Virus record (IMG/VR): IMGVR_UViG_3300046011_003778
Coordinates: 1 to 24,940 of that record
DNA from: a virus
DNA: 24,940 nt
Reading direction: 5' to 3' (one strand)
A program made the position numbers and the translations under genes. Positions 3,100 through 24,940 of this stretch are shown piece after piece; within the stretch, counting starts at the first letter, position 1, and every line of letters begins with the position of its first letter. The notes beneath the pieces were generated by a model. The model had not been told where the DNA came from. It saw only the letters and a list, made by a program, of their open reading frames with translations, and did not search any database.

Positions 3100-3107
3100 T
3101 ATAAATA
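3100..3107 (+). promoter_or_regulatory. T4-type late promoter (TATAAATA) on the plus strand
   Basis: This is an exact TATAAATA, 20 nt before the ATG of the plus-strand gene at 3128, with AAAAGGA between them as ribosome site. It is the only intergenic late element in the window that reads rightward. Confidence 0.7.
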
Positions 3108-3127: not shown

Positions 3128-3469
3128 ATGCCATTTATTGTTACTGAACAACTAACACCACAAAATCCTAGCGTAATTCTTAATTCTTTAGAAGAAGCAA
3201 AAGACTTTTTGATATATGAAGGTATGACTATAGAAGAAAATATATCAATACTAGATAATTTTAATGATCCTTACTGGGCAGCTAATAGAGAATCTTTAAT
3301 TGAAACAATGACTAATATAGATTTTCAATGGGATCAGAATATGCAGACTTTAACGAGAACCCTTGTATTTTCTTCTGAAAGTGCCTATGTTAATCTTAGA
3401 AGAATCCTTAACAAGACAATGCCTGCTATGGAAAGAGATATATCGGTACTTAATACAGATGTTATTTAA
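3128..3469 (+). CDS. Hypothetical protein, late-expressed, inverted between uvsW and uvsY
   Basis: This 113-residue protein has no signal peptide or membrane segment and matches nothing I recognise. It is acidic in the first half (SLEEAKDFL, MTIEENISILDNFNDPYW) and more basic later (SAYVNLRRILNKTMP). A TATAAATA element and an AAAAGGA ribosome site precede the ATG closely. Its TAA (3467-3469) overlaps the uvsY TAA (3466-3468) on the other strand, so the two genes converge with no spacer. A complete promoter, ribosome site and open frame argue for a real gene. The late promoter suggests a virion or late-lysis role. No terminator is visible, so its transcript would run antisense into uvsY. Confidence 0.8.
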   Translation: MPFIVTEQLTPQNPSVILNSLEEAKDFLIYEGMTIEENISILDNFNDPYWAANRESLIETMTNIDFQWDQNMQTLTRTLVFSSESAYVNLRRILNKTMPAMERDISVLNTDVI

Positions 3470-7631: not shown

Positions 7632-8288
7632 CTATTTGTTTTTCAGTAACGAGAGGAAATTCTTGAACTCGCGTGTTTGTGCCTCATAAAGGTCCACTCT
7701 CGGAGTTTTTCTAATTTCAGTCTCAATTCTTTCAATTTCTCGAGCTTCGATAATACCATTATTCCATACCCATTCTACACCTTCCATAATTCCATTAACG
7801 AAAGCTTGAGGTGCGGATGGATCTTGGACGATGTCGACGGTATTCAACATGAAATCGTCTTTGACATACATAACGCCATTTCTCTGTTCGAGACTTCCCA
7901 TACCACGAGTTGAAACACCCAGTTGAACACCACCCTCTAGTAAACCTTGAACTATTTTACCCATTGGAGTATTCAGTATGCGTGCTTTACCCATCACATT
8001 ATTACCTTCCATACGAAGATCGGTAATGAGATGGGATACCTTATCAAGATTCACAGTTGGACCATCTGGATGGTTTAATTCCCCAACTGCTCTTCCAGTT
8101 TTAACTTGAGAATCGACGTATTTGTTTACCGCATTTTCCATTACGTTTTTTGGGTAGATACGTCCATTTCTATTCTTACCTTCGGCCTGAGCAAAGATAC
8201 CTTCGATAACGAAGTTCTTATCTCCGTTCTCTTTCTTTTCAACGATGCACTGAACATCATTCTCGGTATATTCTGTGATCAGCTTCAT
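7632..8288 (-). CDS. 21: Prohead core protease, gp21-like
   Basis: This 218-residue serine protease (T4 gp21 about 212) would mature the prohead, cutting after (I/L)-x-E. The active-site blocks are GELNHPDGP, with His73, and QLGVSTRGMG, with Ser126. FVIEGIFAQAEGKNRNGRIYP at the start is typical of herpesvirus-like U35/S78 prohead proteases. VDIVQDPSAPQAFV is the conserved C-terminal block. The ribosome site GGAGG is strong. The ATG overlaps the stop of the upstream 71-residue gene (TAATG). Confidence 0.96.
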   Translation of the reverse strand: MKLITEYTENDVQCIVEKKENGDKNFVIEGIFAQAEGKNRNGRIYPKNVMENAVNKYVDSQVKTGRAVGELNHPDGPTVNLDKVSHLITDLRMEGNNVMGKARILNTPMGKIVQGLLEGGVQLGVSTRGMGSLEQRNGVMYVKDDFMLNTVDIVQDPSAPQAFVNGIMEGVEWVWNNGIIEAREIERIETEIRKTPRVDLYEAQTREFKNFLSLLKNK

Positions 8289-8503
8289 TATTTGCCTCCG
8301 GCCATCTTTATAAACTGAGTTGCGGCTTTCTTAGCATCTTCAGGAGAATTATAAGAATCTAATTTCTCCGAATCGATATAAGCCACATACTTATTCTTAT
8401 CTTTATGAATCATGACATTATGCTTATCTATTTTACCATCAAAGACATGCTGACCCGCAGGCATTTTCTTTTTAGCTTCCCGTATCTGAGCAAAAGTCTT
8501 CAT
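8288..8503 (-). CDS. Candidate internal head protein with capsid-targeting-like N-terminus
   Basis: This 71-residue basic protein starts MKTFAQIREAKKKMP. T4 internal proteins and Alt begin with a capsid-targeting sequence MKTYQEFIAEA, cut by gp21 after the Glu. Here the same spacing and the rule-matching I7-R8-E9 before Ala are present. The rest (HVFDGKIDKHNVMIHKDKNKYVAYIDSEKLD) is Lys-rich and probably a small mixed alpha/beta fold. It sits between the gp67-like core gene and the protease, where T4 has gene 68, and has its own late promoter 30 nt upstream. It could instead be a diverged core protein like gp68. The Shine-Dalgarno is weak (GAGTG). Confidence 0.8.
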   Translation of the reverse strand: MKTFAQIREAKKKMPAGQHVFDGKIDKHNVMIHKDKNKYVAYIDSEKLDSYNSPEDAKKAATQFIKMAGGK

Positions 8504-8533: not shown

Positions 8534-8541
8534 TATTTATA
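8534..8541 (-). promoter_or_regulatory. T4-type late promoter (TATAAATA)
   Basis: This is an exact TATAAATA on the minus strand between the sulfotransferase stop and the 71-residue gene. It restarts late transcription for the 21-22-23 block. Confidence 0.75.
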
Positions 8542-8565: not shown

Positions 8566-9303
8566 TCAACACCAACCATTTTCATAGTCTATAAGATATA
8601 ATTGTTCAATACGATCTATCTGTTTTCTGTCTAGATCTGGCTTATTCATACTTGTTTTCATTCTATGAAAATCAGGTGGGTTAGTTTTTATACCTAATTT
8701 ATCGTTCATAAATTCTATACATTTATATGTGTCTTTTATATCAAATATTTTATCAAATCTATCCGGCGTACCCATCCACCAACTTTGAGTTTCTAGATGT
8801 TCATTCCAATATTCTTTACTCTCTAACAGATCAAGTAACTGGTCTATATGATAATTATGTTGACGAAAAGGCCCGAATGCTGTATCTTGATATATTTGCA
8901 AATACCCTGATATGAATCTTTTTATTGGGTCCCTTTTTACAGCTACCCTTATACTATCTTTTCTAAAAAAATCTTTAAAAGTTGTATCTTCATGATTTAA
9001 CCACTGCGACACTCTTCCAGATCTTCTACAACCAGTGTGATTCAAATAGGCAAACTCCGAAAGATGATCTAAATCGTCTTCTTTTAATTCACCGGATTTA
9101 ATACTTTGAATAACCCTTGGATGATCTATTGGATAAAGGGAATTAGCATTCGGGTCTTTTACCCAAGTATAATAAGCCTTTATAGAAGTACAAGCGTTTT
9201 TAGCACAAATATTAAAATCTAATCTTGTATTATTTTTGCTAAAATAAATGACTGGTTGCCAATATTCGATCCGCTTCTTCTTCCACGAATCTAAATAACT
9301 CAT
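8566..9303 (-). CDS. Sulfotransferase family 2-like protein inserted in head operon
   Basis: This 245-residue protein has the two PAPS-binding signatures of membrane-type carbohydrate sulfotransferases: CAKNACTSIKAYY (residues 33-45, 5'-phosphosulfate loop) and VAVKRDPIKRFISGYLQIY (about 120-138, 3'-phosphate site RDPxxRxxSxY). The C-terminus IEQLYLIDYENGW is also typical of the family. The reaction would move sulfate from PAPS to a sugar or protein hydroxyl. There is no membrane anchor, unlike Golgi homologues. It starts 2 nt after the gp67-like stop, with no promoter of its own, so it is co-expressed late with portal and core. This slot holds gene 68 in T4. Codon use looks more AT-rich than the head genes around it, suggesting acquisition. 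The substrate is unknown. Confidence 0.85.
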   Translation of the reverse strand: MSYLDSWKKKRIEYWQPVIYFSKNNTRLDFNICAKNACTSIKAYYTWVKDPNANSLYPIDHPRVIQSIKSGELKEDDLDHLSEFAYLNHTGCRRSGRVSQWLNHEDTTFKDFFRKDSIRVAVKRDPIKRFISGYLQIYQDTAFGPFRQHNYHIDQLLDLLESKEYWNEHLETQSWWMGTPDRFDKIFDIKDTYKCIEFMNDKLGIKTNPPDFHRMKTSMNKPDLDRKQIDRIEQLYLIDYENGWC

Positions 9304-9305
9304 GA

Positions 9306-9587
9306 TTAGTCTTCTTCTTCTTCATCCTCCGCATATTCATCAGCAAGATCTTCTAGATCTTCATCAGTATACTCATCTTCTTCAGAATACTCTTCTTCAG
9401 ATTCTTCTTCCTCGTCAGAATAGACGGATTGAGCAATAGCGATCTTTTCTTGATCCAGTGAATCAGATACTCTTTGGGATAAAAGTTCATTAAAAACATC
9501 ATTTGCTTTTGTATATTCAGATTGAGTAATATAATCAACCATTTTAGAAATTGGATTTACATCCGACACTTCATATTCTTCAGCCAT
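9306..9587 (-). CDS. 67: Prohead core protein, gp67-like
   Basis: This 93-residue protein (T4 gp67 about 80) has an N-terminal helical part, EYTKANDVFNELLSQRV, then SLDQEKIAIAQSV. These parallel T4 SNDLVAARKLFAEAMAARTIDLIKEEKIAIA. The second half is almost entirely Glu and Asp with Tyr. The gene follows the portal gene by 9 nt with a TAAGGAG ribosome site, the T4 arrangement. It would be part of the prohead core and be cut by gp21. Confidence 0.92.
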   Translation of the reverse strand: MAEEYEVSDVNPISKMVDYITQSEYTKANDVFNELLSQRVSDSLDQEKIAIAQSVYSDEEEESEEEYSEEDEYTDEDLEDLADEYAEDEEEED

Positions 9588-9596
9588 AATAACTCC

Positions 9597-11177
9597 TTAT
9601 TTAGCTACTTTCAAATTAATAGTGTGTGAGGTTTTAGGCTCTGGTTTAGCCTGTTGTGCCGCCGCTGTTTCTTGTTCAGCATCAGCTTGGTCTATTTCAT
9701 CTTGAGCAGGTTCTTCCAACTCTACTTGTTTCGTCATTTGTTTAATCTGATCATCATCGAAACGAAGAATGTTTTTCATTACCCATTCCTTCGAGAAATA
9801 TTCACCAACATACTGTTGAACCTGATCCAGAGATTGTAGTTTTTCTCTGAGTAATTCAGCTTCTTTGAGTTCTGTGAAATGGTTATCTCTAGTAAACTCA
9901 AAGTTAATATTATTTGAGATATCTTCCCAATCTTCTTCGGTAATAATACTTTTTAAGACTAACTGACGCTTAAGCATCTCACGGAAAAGCATAGAGAATC
10001 TGCGGCGAAGGCGATCAATAAACTTCTGGAATTTTAATTCATCTCTTGAGATTTCTGTAGAACGGCCAAGAGAGAACTGAGATTCCTGTTCAAGTCTGTT
10101 AATCGGAACGTTCAGTGATCTATATAGTCTTTTCTGGAAGTAGACGATATCATCGATCTGTCCTAGGTTTTCGCCACCAGGGAGTGATGTAATCTCAGTA
10201 CCTCGGTTACCCTCACGGCGCGGTAACCAGAAATCTTCAAGCATCGACATATGCTTACGATCGTCTTTAATTTCACCAGTAGCAGCATCATAGACTAGCT
10301 TATTACGATAGCGAGTCATAATGCCTTTCATATATTCTTCTGCTTTACCCTTTGGTAGGTTGCCGACATCAATATAGAAAATACGACGTTCTGGCGCTCT
10401 CGCGAGTCGATAAATAACTAGAGAGTCTTCCATCATACGAAGCTGGTTAATTGGTTTTAATGCTTTATGAAGATATGAGACAACGTGCTTCTGTGATGCA
10501 TCAAGTAGGCCAGAGGTTACATAAATTACAGAATCTTTTGTAAGCTTAATACCGCTATTCTGTTCACCCGGTTTTTCCTGATAGATGAAGTACTCGTTCT
10601 GTCCTTCTACTATACTTGCACCAGTAATTGGATCTCTTTTTCTAATAATCTCTTTTACTTTGCGAATCTTAGCAGAATCAATAGGACGAATATCAAGAAC
10701 ACCTTTCTTTGGGTTCTTCTCGTCTACCACAAGGTGATAAACTTTTCTTCCATCAACATACCATGATCTGAAGATGTCGTGACCTAAGTCGCCAAACTTC
10801 AGCATATAAAGGATATCATCGAATTCTTCTTGAATTTTATTCTTAATAGATTTGGATAGTTCTACATTATCAAGATCTAGCTTAACAGCAATCTCATCAC
10901 CGCCAGATACGGCTTCATTAGTAATATCTTCAATCGCCGCATCCACTTCAGGATGCATAGCTACACCTCTATATTTTTGGATAAGAGTAGCATTATCCTT
11001 GGATTTGTCGCCGTCAATATCAACATATTGTCCGAAGTGTGATCCAGATGCAGTTACATAACCAGCACCATCTTCATCAACTTTTGGAACAATAGATTTT
11101 AGATTTTTATCTTCTGCTTCTTGAGATTTAGATCTTCGAATTTCGAATCCAAAAAGTTTTAAACTATTATCGGCCAT
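9597..11177 (-). CDS. 20: Portal vertex protein, gp20-like
   Basis: This 526-residue protein (T4 gp20 about 524) would form the dodecameric portal, the head initiator and DNA gate. Recognised blocks are KYRGVAMHPEVDAAIEDITNEAV, DDILYMLKFGDLGHDIFRSWYVDGR, RLARAPERRIFYIDVGNLPKGKAEEY, DFWLPRREGNRGTEITSLPGG and SRDELKFQKFIDRLR. The last 40 residues are a Gln/Ala/Glu-rich tail. The start is supported by AGGA upstream and the conserved MADNSLKLFGFEIRR opening. A perfect hairpin (11199-11220) lies between the gp19 stop and this start. A GC-rich patch with TCTCGCGAG lies at 10394-10409. Confidence 0.97.
   Translation of the reverse strand: MADNSLKLFGFEIRRSKSQEAEDKNLKSIVPKVDEDGAGYVTASGSHFGQYVDIDGDKSKDNATLIQKYRGVAMHPEVDAAIEDITNEAVSGGDEIAVKLDLDNVELSKSIKNKIQEEFDDILYMLKFGDLGHDIFRSWYVDGRKVYHLVVDEKNPKKGVLDIRPIDSAKIRKVKEIIRKRDPITGASIVEGQNEYFIYQEKPGEQNSGIKLTKDSVIYVTSGLLDASQKHVVSYLHKALKPINQLRMMEDSLVIYRLARAPERRIFYIDVGNLPKGKAEEYMKGIMTRYRNKLVYDAATGEIKDDRKHMSMLEDFWLPRREGNRGTEITSLPGGENLGQIDDIVYFQKRLYRSLNVPINRLEQESQFSLGRSTEISRDELKFQKFIDRLRRRFSMLFREMLKRQLVLKSIITEEDWEDISNNINFEFTRDNHFTELKEAELLREKLQSLDQVQQYVGEYFSKEWVMKNILRFDDDQIKQMTKQVELEEPAQDEIDQADAEQETAAAQQAKPEPKTSHTINLKVAK
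10394..10409. repeat. GC-rich patch in gene 20 related to the TCGCGGGCG islands
   Basis: GCGCTCTCGCGAGTCG contains TCTCGCG, shared with the island in gene 16. It encodes the conserved RLARAPE segment, so protein constraint could explain it. Confidence 0.3.
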
Positions 11178-11240: not shown

Positions 11241-11768
11241 TTAGGAAGTAGTATTTGATTCCCAATATTGAACCTGGAATTCCACGGTGAATCTCTCGAT
11301 ATCATCATTTGTTCCGTAGGCTAGATCGATTGGAGCAACTGCTGTTGGGAAACATCCGCGGAAGGTATAGGTCTTTAGGATAGATCCGTCACGGTCAAGT
11401 TGTTCAATAAGAAGATCTGCTTCATAATCGATTGGTGCTGTTAGACCGGTATTTGCTTTGTGGGCATTAATACCATTCATCCAACGTTCCATTGCGTTAC
11501 GAATAGCAAAGTCTGTATCGTTAATAATCGTTGGTGACCAAGTATCGAATGTACGGTCACCCGCTAGCTTAAGCTGACGTCCACGGAATGGTATAGTAAT
11601 GACACCCATTGTGGATCCAGGTAGTTGTGCAGCTTCGCAAAGGAATGAAGTGATTTCCACATCACCATTTGCATATGCTGGGAAGTTAATGGTCGCTTTG
11701 AACAGATTCGGTCTAGCGCCACCGCCTTTTAGTTTGGCTTTAAAATCGTCTACTCCAAGAATAGCCAT
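11241..11768 (-). CDS. 19: Tail tube protein, gp19-like
   Basis: This 175-residue protein (T4 gp19 163) would stack as hexamers to form the inner tail tube. It opens MAILGVDDFKAKLKGGGARPNLFKATINFP. The blocks FLCEAAQLPGSTMGVITIPFRGRQLKLAGDRTF and RGCFPTAVAPIDLAYGTNDDIERFTVEFQVQYW are the tube-family signature. It follows the sheath gene by 21 nt with a GGAG site, as in T4. Confidence 0.95.
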   Translation of the reverse strand: MAILGVDDFKAKLKGGGARPNLFKATINFPAYANGDVEITSFLCEAAQLPGSTMGVITIPFRGRQLKLAGDRTFDTWSPTIINDTDFAIRNAMERWMNGINAHKANTGLTAPIDYEADLLIEQLDRDGSILKTYTFRGCFPTAVAPIDLAYGTNDDIERFTVEFQVQYWESNTTS

Positions 11769-11789: not shown

Positions 11790-13523
11790 TTATACCGTAC
11801 CAACAACTTCAGCGAAGTCTACACCGGTTCTAACTGCCACAAAGTTTAGTGTGACATAGTTAATAGAACGGGCAGGCTTGATGAAGAGGCTGCATACGAA
11901 TTCGTTTCTGTCAATAACTGCCGGTGTATTATTTGTTTCGTCACAAACAACACGGAAGTCGGTGATACCACGTCTACCTTGGATTTCTCTTAGGAATGGT
12001 TCGATAATATTTTTAAATTCAGCGCGAGTAAATTCATCGTTGAATTCAAACATTACGTTGCGGGCTGCAACTGAAACCGCTCTTTCGATACCAAGGAACA
12101 GACGACGAACGTTGATTCTATCGAATGCACTTGGGCGAGCAAGTTTTGTTTTATCCCCGTAAAGAAGTACGCCTTGACCAGGAATATTAGCGATTGGGTT
12201 AATACCTGCCTTATAAAGTGTATCTCTCTGGCTTTGATTTGGTGAGTAAGCAAGTGAGGTAACACCCAGAACTTGTCCACGACGTGGTCCAGCTGGTGAG
12301 AACCAAGGAGCTGCAACTGCATCTGTAGATGCCATTATACCTGCAACTGATGATGCAGCTGGAATCCAGATGTACTGATCGTTATACTTATCATATACCT
12401 TTAGGTAGTTATTATCTACAATAAGATATGAAGAAGAAGTGAAAGTATTTGCAGTTGTTACTGAAGCTGTAACCGGGCTTGCGTTTCCGATAATATCAGA
12501 TCTTGCTGGTGAGGTTACAACCACGCAGTCTTTACGGGTTGATCCTGCAATTGTAACTAGATCGTTTACTACGGTTGTCTGGTCCGCTCTGCTTGATAGT
12601 CCTGGTGCAATCAGGAAGTCTACTAGAAGAGCTTCTTTGTCTTCGAATAGATCGAAACCTGTAGCATATTCAGAAGTACCAATAGCACTACCATTTGCAC
12701 CACCAACAAAGTTTACTGTCTTTGTTACTGTTCCAGTCTTAGCATAGTTCTTACTGCTAGAAACATTTGTACCAGCAAGTGCACTGAACTTACCCGCAGC
12801 ACCAAATCCAGCCATCCACACATAGTTTGAACCATTGTTAATCACATCTAGAATGTAGTTTGATGAACCATCTTCTTTTAGTGCACCTTTTGCAAGTGAT
12901 ACGAATGGGAAAATTTCTAGAACGGAACCACGGGTCCCTGAAATTTCTCCTAGACGATCTACTACAACTACGTGCGCTTCATCATTTAGTGCTGATGCAG
13001 CAGTAGCCCATGTTGAGGTTTTTGGCGCCGCATCGAAGCTTGATTTATAGGTCCAGGCGTCAAAGTCGGTAGTACCAGAAGAGTCTGCTGTCACATAATG
13101 TACAGAAATAGAGTTACCAGCATCACCAGGATATTTGGCAATGAAAGAATGATCGCTATCTGCAAGAGCTGCGATTTGATCATCAAAGTTATCTCTATTC
13201 TTTACGAGTGGTGGAGATGCAGAATCTGCATCTGAGTCATAAGCGTTAGTAGCAGAAGCTACGACACGAACAACCTGAAGCTCGTTTGAATATCTTAAGA
13301 AGTAAGCAGCTGAATGCCACTCTACTGTGTTGTCACTGTCTGGTGAACCGAATACTTCAACAAGACCGCTTTCGTTTGAAATTAGTACTGGCTCTTCAAC
13401 TGGACCCCAGTTAAATTCGCCAACGAATGCGCCGGTGCTTGTTGGAACGTTAGGTACAACCCCAGTGAGATCTATCTCTCTAACAAAAATGCCAGGAGAT
13501 TGTAATGGTGTTGAAATTGCCAT
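11790..13523 (-). CDS. 18: Contractile tail sheath protein, gp18-like
   Basis: This 577-residue protein (T4 gp18 659) would form the contractile sheath. The N-terminus STPLQSPGIFVREIDLTGVVPNVPTSTGAFVGEFNWGPV is the classic sheath opening. The C-terminal third carries AYSPNQSQRDTLYKAGINPI, RPSAFDRINVRRLFLGIERAV, FEFNDEFTRAEFKNIIEPFLREIQGRRGI and ends RSINYVTLNFVAVRTGVDFAE, the sheath core that binds tube and neighbours. The middle is the variable protrusion region, shorter than in T4. A late promoter lies 62 nt upstream. Confidence 0.97.
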   Translation of the reverse strand: MAISTPLQSPGIFVREIDLTGVVPNVPTSTGAFVGEFNWGPVEEPVLISNESGLVEVFGSPDSDNTVEWHSAAYFLRYSNELQVVRVVASATNAYDSDADSASPPLVKNRDNFDDQIAALADSDHSFIAKYPGDAGNSISVHYVTADSSGTTDFDAWTYKSSFDAAPKTSTWATAASALNDEAHVVVVDRLGEISGTRGSVLEIFPFVSLAKGALKEDGSSNYILDVINNGSNYVWMAGFGAAGKFSALAGTNVSSSKNYAKTGTVTKTVNFVGGANGSAIGTSEYATGFDLFEDKEALLVDFLIAPGLSSRADQTTVVNDLVTIAGSTRKDCVVVTSPARSDIIGNASPVTASVTTANTFTSSSYLIVDNNYLKVYDKYNDQYIWIPAASSVAGIMASTDAVAAPWFSPAGPRRGQVLGVTSLAYSPNQSQRDTLYKAGINPIANIPGQGVLLYGDKTKLARPSAFDRINVRRLFLGIERAVSVAARNVMFEFNDEFTRAEFKNIIEPFLREIQGRRGITDFRVVCDETNNTPAVIDRNEFVCSLFIKPARSINYVTLNFVAVRTGVDFAEVVGTV

Positions 13524-13584: not shown

Positions 13585-13592
13585 TATTTATA
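13585..13592 (-). promoter_or_regulatory. T4-type late promoter (TATAAATA) for genes 18-19
   Basis: This is an exact TATAAATA on the minus strand in the 81-nt gap between gene 17 and gene 18. It would give sheath and tube extra late transcripts, consistent with their high copy number in the virion. Confidence 0.78.
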
Positions 13593-21671: not shown

Positions 21672-22427
21672 CTATTTGTGGTAATTAGAAAAGAATTCGT
21701 ATACTTGGTCCAATATTCCCGCTTCAGAACACCCGTTAAGAATACAAACTGGAAGATGAGGTATATAATAACCGGTACAAGATCCTCTTCTTCCAAGGTC
21801 GTCTTTGGTTTCAAATCTTTCTTTAGTTTCATATTTCTTATGAGGATCACCCATATCTTTTACGACCTGAGGTACTCGAATAAACGAATAGAAATCTTTC
21901 ATCGGAATAAAAAAATCCAATTCTTCCCTATGAATTTGCCAAAGATATCTACAAACCCCTTCATACTGTATAATATTATAGTCCGGGTTCTTTAGAAACC
22001 TTTCTCTAATATAATTAGTTTTAGAAGGGATAAAAAGCATTATAGAGGAGTTAATCCCAGTTGGCCATTTAAGAGAATCTGATTCTCTTAATTCACCGGA
22101 GTAACCTATCTTTATACTTTTCTCAGGACGATTAAAAAGATGATCAATATTATTTTGTATTATAGTATCAAGGTCAAAGTAAAAAGTAGGTACGTCATCA
22201 ATATAAAGTGATGCATCAAATATACAGAACTTGTACCAGAAACTTTCAAGATCAAGATCTAAATCTAATTTTCTTACTATAATATCAGGATGTAATTCAG
22301 ATCCATTGTCGGTTAAACAATAAAATAAAAATGGTAAGGAAGTATTTCTCCTTACCATTTCATATAATCTATTCACATGAGAAGCATTATACTTTGTGCC
22401 GTACTTAACACAAACTATATTAACCAT
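21672..22427 (-). CDS. Glycosyltransferase-like protein (GT-A, DxD)
   Basis: This 251-residue protein opens MVNIVCVKYGTKYNASHVNRLYEMVRRNTSLPFLFYCLTDN, the nucleotide-sugar-binding start found in small phage and bacterial glycosyltransferases. FWYKFCIFDASLYIDDVPTFYFDLDTII supplies D85-x-D87, the metal/sugar-nucleotide site. SSIMLFIP fits the acceptor-side strand. The frame extends to a TTG at 22442, but the ATG at 22427 suits the family start and leaves room after the promoter at 22456-22483. That promoter is of the TTTACA class, unlike the late promoters around it, suggesting expression before the fibre genes. The sugar and acceptor are unknown. Confidence 0.82.
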   Translation of the reverse strand: MVNIVCVKYGTKYNASHVNRLYEMVRRNTSLPFLFYCLTDNGSELHPDIIVRKLDLDLDLESFWYKFCIFDASLYIDDVPTFYFDLDTIIQNNIDHLFNRPEKSIKIGYSGELRESDSLKWPTGINSSIMLFIPSKTNYIRERFLKNPDYNIIQYEGVCRYLWQIHREELDFFIPMKDFYSFIRVPQVVKDMGDPHKKYETKERFETKDDLGRRGSCTGYYIPHLPVCILNGCSEAGILDQVYEFFSNYHK

Positions 22428-22455
22428 ATCTAACCCACCCAAAGTACGCTTATTT

Positions 22456-22483
22456 ATTATACCAGAATAAAAAGATTTGTAAA
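22456..22483 (-). promoter_or_regulatory. sigma70-type promoter for the glycosyltransferase (TTTACA-16-TATAAT)
   Basis: On the minus strand TTTACA (22478-22483, context GGGATTTACAAATC) and TATAAT (22456-22461) are 16 nt apart. The -10 runs on into AATAAATA (22451-22458), one base from the late consensus, so the site might serve both phases. Confidence 0.68.
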
Positions 22484-22487
22484 TCCC

Positions 22488-23156
22488 TTAAATCGGATTT
22501 TCGATATCCTCGATGATATCTTCCCACATAGCTTCTTCTCTTCCCCAGATATATGCAACACTGATGCGAAGACAGTCAGTTGATGCAGCATGATAGCAAA
22601 GTTTATCAGACTCATCATAAGATCCGAAATAAGTCATTTTACACTGCCAACCGGAGTGGTCTGGAACGCGTACTCTTTCCTTCTTATCTAGATCCCAGTA
22701 ATCAAACCAGCCATCGCCATTTTCTGACCAAGAGAAAATAACGTTATAACCTGCAGCGTTTGCATTATTATGCCAGCTAATCCACCCACCAGGCGGGTAA
22801 ACTGTAATCAAAGTATTTCTTTTTGCAGATAGCTCTGTCATTAGCTCATTATTTAATTTCGTAGAGGCTTTACGATAATCCTCGTAGGATTCTTTATAAC
22901 CTCCACTACCAGCTGGCATTAATCCATGATAGGAACGCATACTCTCAGGAAATCCCTCGTGCGCCCGCCCGCGAGACATAATTCTTTCCATATAATCATC
23001 TGCTAACCAACGATCCCGAGTATGATCTCTAGCATTCAGATCTAACTCTTTATCAAGCAATTCCTTTGATCTTTTATCTAAAATAAAGTCTTTAAATTCA
23101 TTCAAAGCCTTTAAAACAGACTTATTATTGATTTCTACGTCACGTACTTCAAACAT
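22488..23156 (-). CDS. 2OG-Fe(II) oxygenase-like protein
   Basis: This 222-residue protein has a beta-rich core from about residue 115: TLITVYPPGGWISWHNNANAAGYNVIFSWSENGDGWFDYWD. After it comes CYHAASTDCLRISVAYIWG. H129, H189 and R197 fit the first His, distal His and 2-oxoglutarate Arg of the double-stranded beta-helix oxygenases that are common in marine T4-like phages. The usual HxD acid is Asn131 (H-N-N), which is a departure. Residues 40-100 are helical and charged. It is coupled to the glycosyltransferase upstream by TAATG. The possible hydroxylation substrate is unknown. Confidence 0.72.
   Translation of the reverse strand: MFEVRDVEINNKSVLKALNEFKDFILDKRSKELLDKELDLNARDHTRDRWLADDYMERIMSRGRAHEGFPESMRSYHGLMPAGSGGYKESYEDYRKASTKLNNELMTELSAKRNTLITVYPPGGWISWHNNANAAGYNVIFSWSENGDGWFDYWDLDKKERVRVPDHSGWQCKMTYFGSYDESDKLCYHAASTDCLRISVAYIWGREEAMWEDIIEDIENPI
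22956..22976. repeat. GC-rich island in the oxygenase gene
   Basis: This stretch contains CCCGCCCGCGA (22964-22974), found again at 24847-24857. It also contains CGCCCGCGAGA (22966-22976), the exact inverse of 15459-15469 in gene 16. It is read here as SRGRA, in a different codon phase from the other two sites. Confidence 0.6.
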
Positions 23157-23950
23157 TAATATACTGCGTCCTTCTTCATAGATGCCGAATGATGTATAAC
23201 GATAGGCTGTTTATTAACTAGATTATGTTTTCCCGTAATAGGATTGATTCTAAAACTAGTAAACCAGTTCCATCTGTAGTTGTCTTTAAATCTTCCAATC
23301 TTTAGATCTTTATATTTACTCTCTTTATTTGTTAACCACCAAAGAGTAAATTGATCCCATCTTAACATAGTTCTTGGCGTACCCTCTGGCCACCATACCT
23401 CTTCATTTTTTTGATGATTCCACGATCTTTCTTGGGCTTGGAATTTTATCCACCAATCTTTCATAAATTCTTTTACTAGGGGATTCTTGTTATTATAAAG
23501 ACAAACCCCACCGCATAAAATTAAATCTATCTTGTCCCCGGTACTTTGAATAGTTCCTTCTACCTCGACAAAAGAATTTTGGGCACTTTTATCTTTGGTG
23601 AGTTCTACGAAAACTAGATCATTATCACCTAACTGTTCCCAGATAGTCGTAATATCTTCGTGCTCTACCTCACAGTCAGCATCGATATAAAAGGTAATAT
23701 CGAAGGGGGAATTTGCCATACCGTAGAGTTTTGCTCTAATGTGATCATCACAATAAAATAGTTGAATATTAGGATGATCTTTACAACGATGATCTACGAA
23801 TCTTTCCTCTGTGAAAAGAGCAAATTGAGCATCGGGATAATAATCTAGAATCGATTCAATAAGATTAATTGCTGAATAGTAGAATGCAATCTTTTTTGAA
23901 GCTACGATTACAAAACCTTTACTCAGCGGCTTCTCTTGCTGATTCTGCAT
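23156..23950 (-). CDS. Glycosyltransferase-like protein (GT-A, DxD)
   Basis: This 264-residue protein carries GFVIVASKKIAFYYSAINLIESILDYYPDAQFALFTEE, then FDITFYIDADCEVEHED with D90-A-D92 as the sugar-nucleotide/metal motif. LILCGGVCLYNNKNPLVKEFMKDWW and a late PIVIHHSASMKKDAVY, with paired His, fit the GT-A pattern of marine T4-like phage proteins. The start overlaps the coiled-coil gene upstream by 32 nt, with an AAGAAGAA-type purine run as ribosome site. The stop overlaps the oxygenase start (TAATG). It may modify virion or host surface glycans; the acceptor is unknown. Confidence 0.82.
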   Translation of the reverse strand: MQNQQEKPLSKGFVIVASKKIAFYYSAINLIESILDYYPDAQFALFTEERFVDHRCKDHPNIQLFYCDDHIRAKLYGMANSPFDITFYIDADCEVEHEDITTIWEQLGDNDLVFVELTKDKSAQNSFVEVEGTIQSTGDKIDLILCGGVCLYNNKNPLVKEFMKDWWIKFQAQERSWNHQKNEEVWWPEGTPRTMLRWDQFTLWWLTNKESKYKDLKIGRFKDNYRWNWFTSFRINPITGKHNLVNKQPIVIHHSASMKKDAVY

Positions 23951-24390: not shown

Positions 24391-24940
24391 TCACGCTATT
24401 CTTACGTATAATGTATATATCTCTACTGTTTGGGAGCTAGATTGGATCGTTGAAGCGACATAGTTACCTATAAAGTTACCGGTATAATCTCCTATAAAGT
24501 TACCTATATAATCCCCAGTGTAATCCCCAGTGTAATCAGCTGTATAATTACCAAGATAGTCCGCTGTATAATCTGCTGTGTAGTTACCAGTGAATTCGCC
24601 AGTATACTCACCTTCGTAGTTACCAATGAAATTGCCAAGATAATCAGCAGTATACTCTCCAACGAAGTTACCTAGGAAATCCGCAGTATAGGCTCCGATA
24701 TAATCTCCGATATAGTCAGCAGCATAGTTACCTATAAAGTTTCCTAGATAGTCTGCTGTATAATTACCTATATAATCGCCAAGATAATCAGCTACGTAAT
24801 TTCCTGTATAGTCTGCTGTATAATTACCCGTATATTCGCCCACGTACCCGCCCGCGAAAGTAGATTCCCTTGTTCTAGTAAAATTATTTGTGGAAGTTAT
24901 AGTAAAATCTGTAGTAGAAGTTCTACTATAAACCCCAGAT
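24391..24940 (-). CDS. Tyr-rich tetrapeptide-repeat structural/fibre protein, N-terminus beyond window
   Basis: The frame is open to the window edge, and a GTG at 24843 is not its start. The visible 182 residues begin with Thr/Ser/Arg-rich SGVYSRTSTTDFTITSTN and TRTRESTFA. Then 33 uninterrupted tetrads follow the rule [G/A]-[N/D/E]-[Y/F]-[T/I/L/V], for example GNYT, ADYL, GNFI. A 21-residue non-repetitive end, ASTIQSSSQTVEIYTLYVRIA, follows. Marine T4-like phages carry similar YTGN-type repeat proteins among their structural genes. A regular aromatic every fourth residue suggests a solenoid or stacked beta fold. A fibre or decoration role is inferred. Confidence 0.85.
   Translation of the reverse strand, partial: SGVYSRTSTTDFTITSTNNFTRTRESTFAGGYVGEYTGNYTADYTGNYVADYLGDYIGNYTADYLGNFIGNYAADYIGDYIGAYTADFLGNFVGEYTADYLGNFIGNYEGEYTGEFTGNYTADYTADYLGNYTADYTGDYTGDYIGNFIGDYTGNFIGNYVASTIQSSSQTVEIYTLYVRIA
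24457..24852 (-). repeat. 33 tandem 12-bp (tetrapeptide) repeats
   Basis: The 396-bp block is made wholly of 12-bp units with variable third bases. TA-rich Tyr codons appear every fourth codon. There is no spacer and no frameshift. Near-identical units would allow slippage or recombination that changes length in multiples of four residues. Confidence 0.88.
24843..24857. repeat. GC-rich island before the tetrad repeats
   Basis: CCCGCCCGCGA at 24847-24857 is identical to 22964-22974. It sits at the junction of the Thr/Ser-rich part and the first tetrad, coding for FAGGY. Confidence 0.5.

Follow-up and report, generated by a model that had tools for sequence, protein, structure and literature searches.

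A sulfotransferase (ST) gene within a set of head genes arranged as in T4 raises the question of what such an enzyme does for a phage and why its gene lies at this place. The window, that is, the whole stretch of DNA analysed, is a virus record of 24,940 bases whose genes follow the T4 order 17-18-19-20-67-ST-(71 aa)-21-22-23. The positions of the features discussed are given in Table 1.

Table 1. Features of the window and of related loci. Positions refer to the window unless ST residues or another contig are named.
Feature	Position	Strand	Remarks
Prohead protease gene 21	7632-8288	minus	PF03420 E 1.4e-42; first large gene of the next putative late unit
71-aa ORF	8288-8503	minus	Conserved; precedes gene 21
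Late-promoter site TATAAATA	8534-8541	minus	Between ST and the 71-aa ORF
ST gene	8566-9303	minus	ORF of 245 aa; ATG at 9303
5'-PSB loop	ST residues 34-42		AKNACTSIK, with K35
3'-PB site	ST residues 122-134		VKRDPIKRFISGY, R124...S132, spacing 8
Gene 67-like prohead core gene	9306-9587	minus	Directly upstream of ST
Portal protein gene 20	9597-11177	minus	PF07230 E 5.8e-178
Tail tube gene 19	11241-11768	minus	Homologue of the C48C1 tail tube gene, 68.6%; in putative late unit 18-19-20-67-ST
Tail sheath gene 18	11790-13523	minus	First gene of putative late unit 18-19-20-67-ST (Pfam, PHROGs)
Late-promoter site TATAAATA	13585-13592	minus	62 nt upstream of gene 18
212-214-aa gene at the 67/71-aa-ORF junction of ST-free relatives	L150:1213-1854, L170:4153-4797, L177:4160-4798, L181:1026-1664
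ST at genes 44/62	L009-L014, L038-L106, e.g. L076:4970-7349

Identity of the sulfotransferase

The gene is confirmed as a real feature of these phages. The same ORF occurs in L001-L004 at 97-100% identity and, at the same place, in L032-L037 at 43-46% identity. The dN/dS of ST was 0.070 against L003 and 0.048 against L004; the neighbouring genes 21, 22 and 23 had values of 0.099, 0.18 and 0.041. Because the ORF is shared by these loci and has such low ratios it is more than a chance reading frame, and the ratios show that ST is under strong purifying selection and is thus a used gene.

A search of Pfam matched ST residues 30-241 to Sulfotransfer_2 (PF03567) with an E-value of 9.6e-6 and a score of 26.3 bits, above the curated cut-off of 22 bits for this family. 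This was the sole family match above cut-off in Pfam and PHROGs; the PHROGs match, phrog_3542, is annotated as 'unknown function'. No match was obtained with NCBIfam or in a sequence search of the PDB with the single ST protein, and scanning 84,980 prokaryote species twice, with strict conserved patterns as the query, yielded 0 cellular relatives. Among the phage homologues, 25 of 33 family members matched PF03567 individually (E 0.01 or better).

The initial annotation had reported both PAPS-binding signatures, and they are well conserved in an alignment of 33 diverse phage ST members (alignment A3). K35 of the 5'-phosphosulfate loop and the residues R124, D125 and P126 of the 3'-phosphate site are present in 33/33 homologues and S132 in 32/33, and H169, D239 and W244 are invariant across the 33. 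The spacing of eight residues between the Arg and the Ser is usual in PAPS enzymes. A profile built from the 33 sequences matched heparan sulfate 2-O-sulfotransferase (HS2ST; E 0.007) across both PAPS regions, with the R124/S132 site aligned to the HS2ST sequence RDPIERLVS. HS2ST has its catalytic His before the 3'-PB motif, whereas no conserved His or Glu could be recognised upstream of this motif in the alignment of the ST family; the invariant H169 comes after it.

Structure prediction led to the same family. The AlphaFold2 model of ST had a pLDDT of 81.9 and a pTM of 0.81. Foldseek alone gave weak matches to the PDB, the best being HS2ST with an E-value of 0.02, and none had an E-value below 0.001. 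Structural re-alignment placed HS2ST at the top, with a Z of 9.4 over 177 residues (rmsd 4.3); the 6-O-sulfotransferase HS6ST (Z 9.1), HS3ST and NDST came next, and all of the 50 re-aligned PDB matches listed are sulfotransferases (Z 7.5-9.4). The best solved folds, HS2ST (4ndz, 3f5f) and HS6ST (5t03), align over about 175 residues with an rmsd of 4.1-4.3 and share 13-16% identity with ST; both are from animals, and their heparan acceptors are known. Among viral models, the best match was the sulfotransferase of phage ACG-2014f (E 1.2e-10; BFVD, TM 0.63/0.73), and further matches were to giant-virus and phage sulfotransferases (P-SSM7, SIO1 gp5.1, RSL1). Together, the Pfam match, the conserved signatures and the resemblance of the model to sulfotransferases agree with the identity first proposed. 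That ST belongs to the PAPS-type sulfotransferase family is well supported by the sequence and the model, and its activity is predicted from them.

The enzyme is a phage sulfotransferase of an already known kind; its genomic placement is unusual and informative. ACG-2014f, a T4-like Synechococcus phage of the Kyanoviridae, encodes a sulfotransferase (AIX44149.1, phrog_3542) with the same PAPS signatures and 28.7% identity to ST over the C-terminal half (E 5e-5). It lacks the N-terminal extension of ST, and its gene lies in a fucose/glycan cluster beside the tail fibre, whereas that of the window lies in the core operon. The sulfotransferases of OM43-phage-like genomes and S-SRM01 are likewise marine, phage-encoded and of the PAPS type, but they belong to Sulfotransfer_3 (PF13469) rather than PF03567, and none is reported inside the core operon (PMC10580990). 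Phage sulfotransferases have been found repeatedly in aquatic viromes, their function being stated as 'unclear' (PMC10580990), and have been described as auxiliary metabolic genes (PMC8290583; PMC10829341; PMC12285232). The view that a sulfotransferase is unusual for a tailed phage therefore had to be given up, since such genes are also present in ACG-2014f, P-SSM7, SIO1 and RSL1 (see also PMC10580990). Our incomplete coverage of the literature yielded no description of a sulfotransferase gene inside a head operon or flanked by genes 44 and 62.

Insertion next to gene 67

As first noted, ST starts 2 nt past the gene 67-like gene, the gap consisting of positions 9304-9305 (the upstream gene ends at 9306, stop included). 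The assignment of this neighbour as gene 67-like is suggested by weak but consistent matches to PF17634 (E 4.7e-5, below cut-off), phrog_1064 (E 1.1e-7) and T4 gp67 (BLASTP, E 2e-5 over 39 residues).

The minus strand has five exact TATAAATA sites, and 5/5 precede a gene start by 21-62 nt, even though the 80-nt zones upstream of genes make up just 9% of the window. No exact late-promoter site belonging to ST itself was found within 18-19-20-67-ST, which bears out the earlier statement that ST has no promoter of its own; the nearest exact site upstream is the one ahead of gene 18. The purine-rich 3' end of gene 67 is the sole ribosome-binding-like stretch ahead of ST. Since one site precedes gene 18 and another follows ST, ST would be the terminal gene of a putative late unit 18-19-20-67-ST, and the 71-aa ORF and genes 21-22-23 would form a separate putative late unit starting behind it. 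The description of ST as embedded in the head operon needs the correction that a late-promoter site separates it from 21-22-23. A plus-strand gene (3128-3469, 113 aa) that is conserved (also in L004) lies amid the minus-strand genes of the window, between helicase-like and uvsY-like genes, and has its own TATAAATA at 3100.

In ST-free relatives such as L113, the late-promoter stretch TTTAAAAAAGTTAATTTATATAAATAAA comes within a few bases after the gene 67 stop, and an almost identical stretch follows the ST stop in the window. On this comparison ST is a precise insertion between gene 67 and the promoter that left both intact. Its G+C of 0.317 is the lowest among the head genes. The initial annotation had placed ST at the gene 68 position. 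In T4 the order 67-68-21 is contiguous, whereas here ST lies between gene 67 and the conserved 71-aa ORF, for which no similarity to T4 gp68 was found. A replacement of gene 68 by ST was ruled out; the 71-aa ORF is retained in relatives with or without ST, and ST matches Sulfotransfer_2. ST is an insertion beside gene 67 and no substitute for gene 68.

A survey of relatives at this locus, which had been called for at the outset, found ST in 7/85 of the related head loci listed. The closest named syntenic phage, C48C1 (OQ984149.1), has the same order 20-67-(small ORF)-21-22-23 and no ST at the junction or elsewhere in its 156 kb. In other loci the junction holds a different gene of 212-214 aa, methyltransferase-like by eye and with no Pfam match, and in L037 a GT25 gene lies between genes 20 and 67 (PF01755 E 1.2e-10). 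Because ST, the 212-214-aa gene and the nearby GT25 gene all occur here, the gene 67/71-aa-ORF junction is, judged from gene content, a cargo site. In L036, a gene similar to the methyltransferase-like one (1591-2187) comes after ST.

Two alternative homes of the ST family

A profile-guided scan of viral contigs combined with labelling of neighbouring genes gave 96 ST loci; each scan contributed its best 80 matches and the contigs are partly redundant. Among the matches listed, ST adjoins the clamp-loader genes 44 and/or 62 in about 73 T4-like loci out of the 96 and is at the head junction in 10. The remaining loci listed are four in glycan clusters, eight in another phage type and one other. 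At the second site the order is 44-ST-62-regA, with extra cargo in some loci, and the 44/62 interval is itself variable in content, with dCMP deaminase, MazG-like and epimerase genes. A census of gene 44 found ST in 21/80 loci listed, and in 20/72 of those with gene 62 visible. L017-L024, which come from another phage type, have a divergent sulfotransferase (VRNNKAGSTTI...YRDPIDKI) by 2-oxoglutarate-oxygenase-like arrays, and L018 has a further sulfotransferase-like ORF (1364-2155).

Eight contigs with ST at 44/62 have a gene 21 that is 75-78% identical to that of the window, which places these phages in the same broad group, and their 67/21 junction is ST-free in 8/8 cases. Both sites are visible in G001, which has an ST of 97% identity; its head site is filled and its 44/62 interval contains other cargo. 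ST is present as one copy each in 13/14 records with a match (records of up to 151 kb), the exception being ACG-2014f with a second weak ST-like gene. That sulfotransferase-like gene (KJ019152.1, 166205-166771; E 8.5e-9 with the family profile) lies in the same glycan cluster. These data show that the ST family has two alternative syntenic homes, the head junction or 44/62. In a tree of ST, with L002 and L035 counted as head-type, a supported branch (99/97) parts the 44/62 sequences from the head ones, while long branches leave the deep joins unsure. This split fits a history of few relocations between the two sites, followed by apparently stable inheritance.

Acceptor, sulfate donor and proposed role

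Sugar genes recur near ST. The ACG-2014f cluster contains GMD, epimerase, GT11, GT6 and GT25 genes close to the tail fibre, L015 has the gene order GMD-GMER-GT11-ST, and a sugar-nucleotide epimerase adjoins ST in L010/L011. The sister contig G001 encodes an epimerase, a member of the UDP-glucose/GDP-mannose dehydrogenase family, a cytidylyltransferase and an FkbM methyltransferase. These neighbours favour a carbohydrate as the most likely acceptor of ST. No complete sugar pathway was found in the window.

Two glycosyltransferase-like genes surround a 222-aa gene by the tail-fibre genes of the window (21672-23950, minus strand), and G012 and G018 retain this block. A homologue of the 222-aa gene adjoins the tail tube gene in C48C1. 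The fibre-side glycosyltransferase was considered as a mark of ST-bearing phages and rejected because ST-free C48C1 also has one. A further minus-strand gene (24391-24843) encodes a protein that is almost wholly a short repeat (GNYTADYTGDYIGNF...) and weakly matches a tail-fibre family (phrog_30742).

A search of 17 records detected no APS kinase in the window or in any of the ST-bearing records among them, in line with the initial remark that genes for PAPS synthesis are not visible, so the host is the expected source of PAPS. The sole APS-kinase-like match (G020:60152-60400, E 2.4e-7) is in a T4-like contig, 135 kb long, that has no ST.

We propose, with a probability of about 0.55, that ST is a PAPS-dependent sulfotransferase of the carbohydrate type that acts on a surface glycan; we infer its catalysis, acceptor, timing and benefit. 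With PAPS taken from the host as donor, the enzyme would sulfate a hydroxyl on a sugar in whose synthesis or remodelling the phage takes part. In the clade of the window, ST would be transcribed late as the close of the 18-19-20-67 unit and its translation would be coupled to gene 67, so that the enzyme would be on hand during virion assembly. The sulfated glycan would be placed on a virion fibre or on the host envelope and could alter adsorption of new virions or of competing phages. Location in a late unit suggests a virion target, and the 44/62 placement suggests an earlier, host-directed role. Since most homologues are at 44/62, where early or middle expression is expected, late timing does not seem essential to ST function.

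Other explanations for these data were considered. ST may sulfate a host small molecule or lipid as an auxiliary metabolic gene, for example in stress or sulfur handling. This would fit the sharing of the 44/62 interval with metabolic cargo (dCMP deaminase, MazG-like) and the listing of phage sulfotransferases as auxiliary metabolic genes (PMC8290583, PMC10829341, PMC12285232). We regard it as unlikely given that the nearest folds are glycan O-sulfotransferases and that glycan genes adjoin ST in three separate contexts. If ST were incidental cargo of little benefit at a permissive intergenic site, its operon position would say nothing about function. Strong purifying selection, family-wide conservation of the PAPS residues and the single copy at one of two fixed sites in divergent phages make this quite improbable, even though ST occurs in just 7/85 of the related head loci listed, has the low G+C described above, shares its junction with other genes elsewhere and left gene 67 and the promoter undamaged.

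Tyrosine sulfotransferases share the general sulfotransferase fold, and modification of a capsid or fibre protein by a protein (tyrosine) sulfotransferase would explain a gene in the virion operon, as in the late virion unit of the window's clade. However, the replication operon holds most ST members, and 0 of the 50 PDB matches listed are tyrosine sulfotransferases, a count that by itself does not exclude such an activity; this reading seems very unlikely to us. The chances are slimmer still that ST retains the fold but is no longer catalytic, and binds PAP/PAPS or sugar while serving a structural or regulatory function in the head in the place of gp68. Its location beside gene 67 and the lack of a clearly recognised catalytic base in the alignment are what such a protein would predict, but the same residues are kept in homologues outside the head operon and the 71-aa ORF is still beside ST.

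A bolder form of the surface-glycan proposal, which we consider rather doubtful, is that in one T4-like aquatic phage group ST is a quasi-core single-copy gene located at 67/21 or at 44/62 and not at both, its late version sulfating a virion glycan. The family is tractable in that it involves one gene with conserved PAPS residues at two fixed positions, for which expression is expected at different times, and the relatives beside fucose-type and GT25 glycan genes add to this. If the surface-glycan proposal is true, sulfation of a glycan on the virion or the infected cell would add a new layer to the surface chemistry between phage and host, and if the either-or single-copy gene with a late virion-glycan role is also true, it would mean that the virion of a tailed phage has a sulfated surface.
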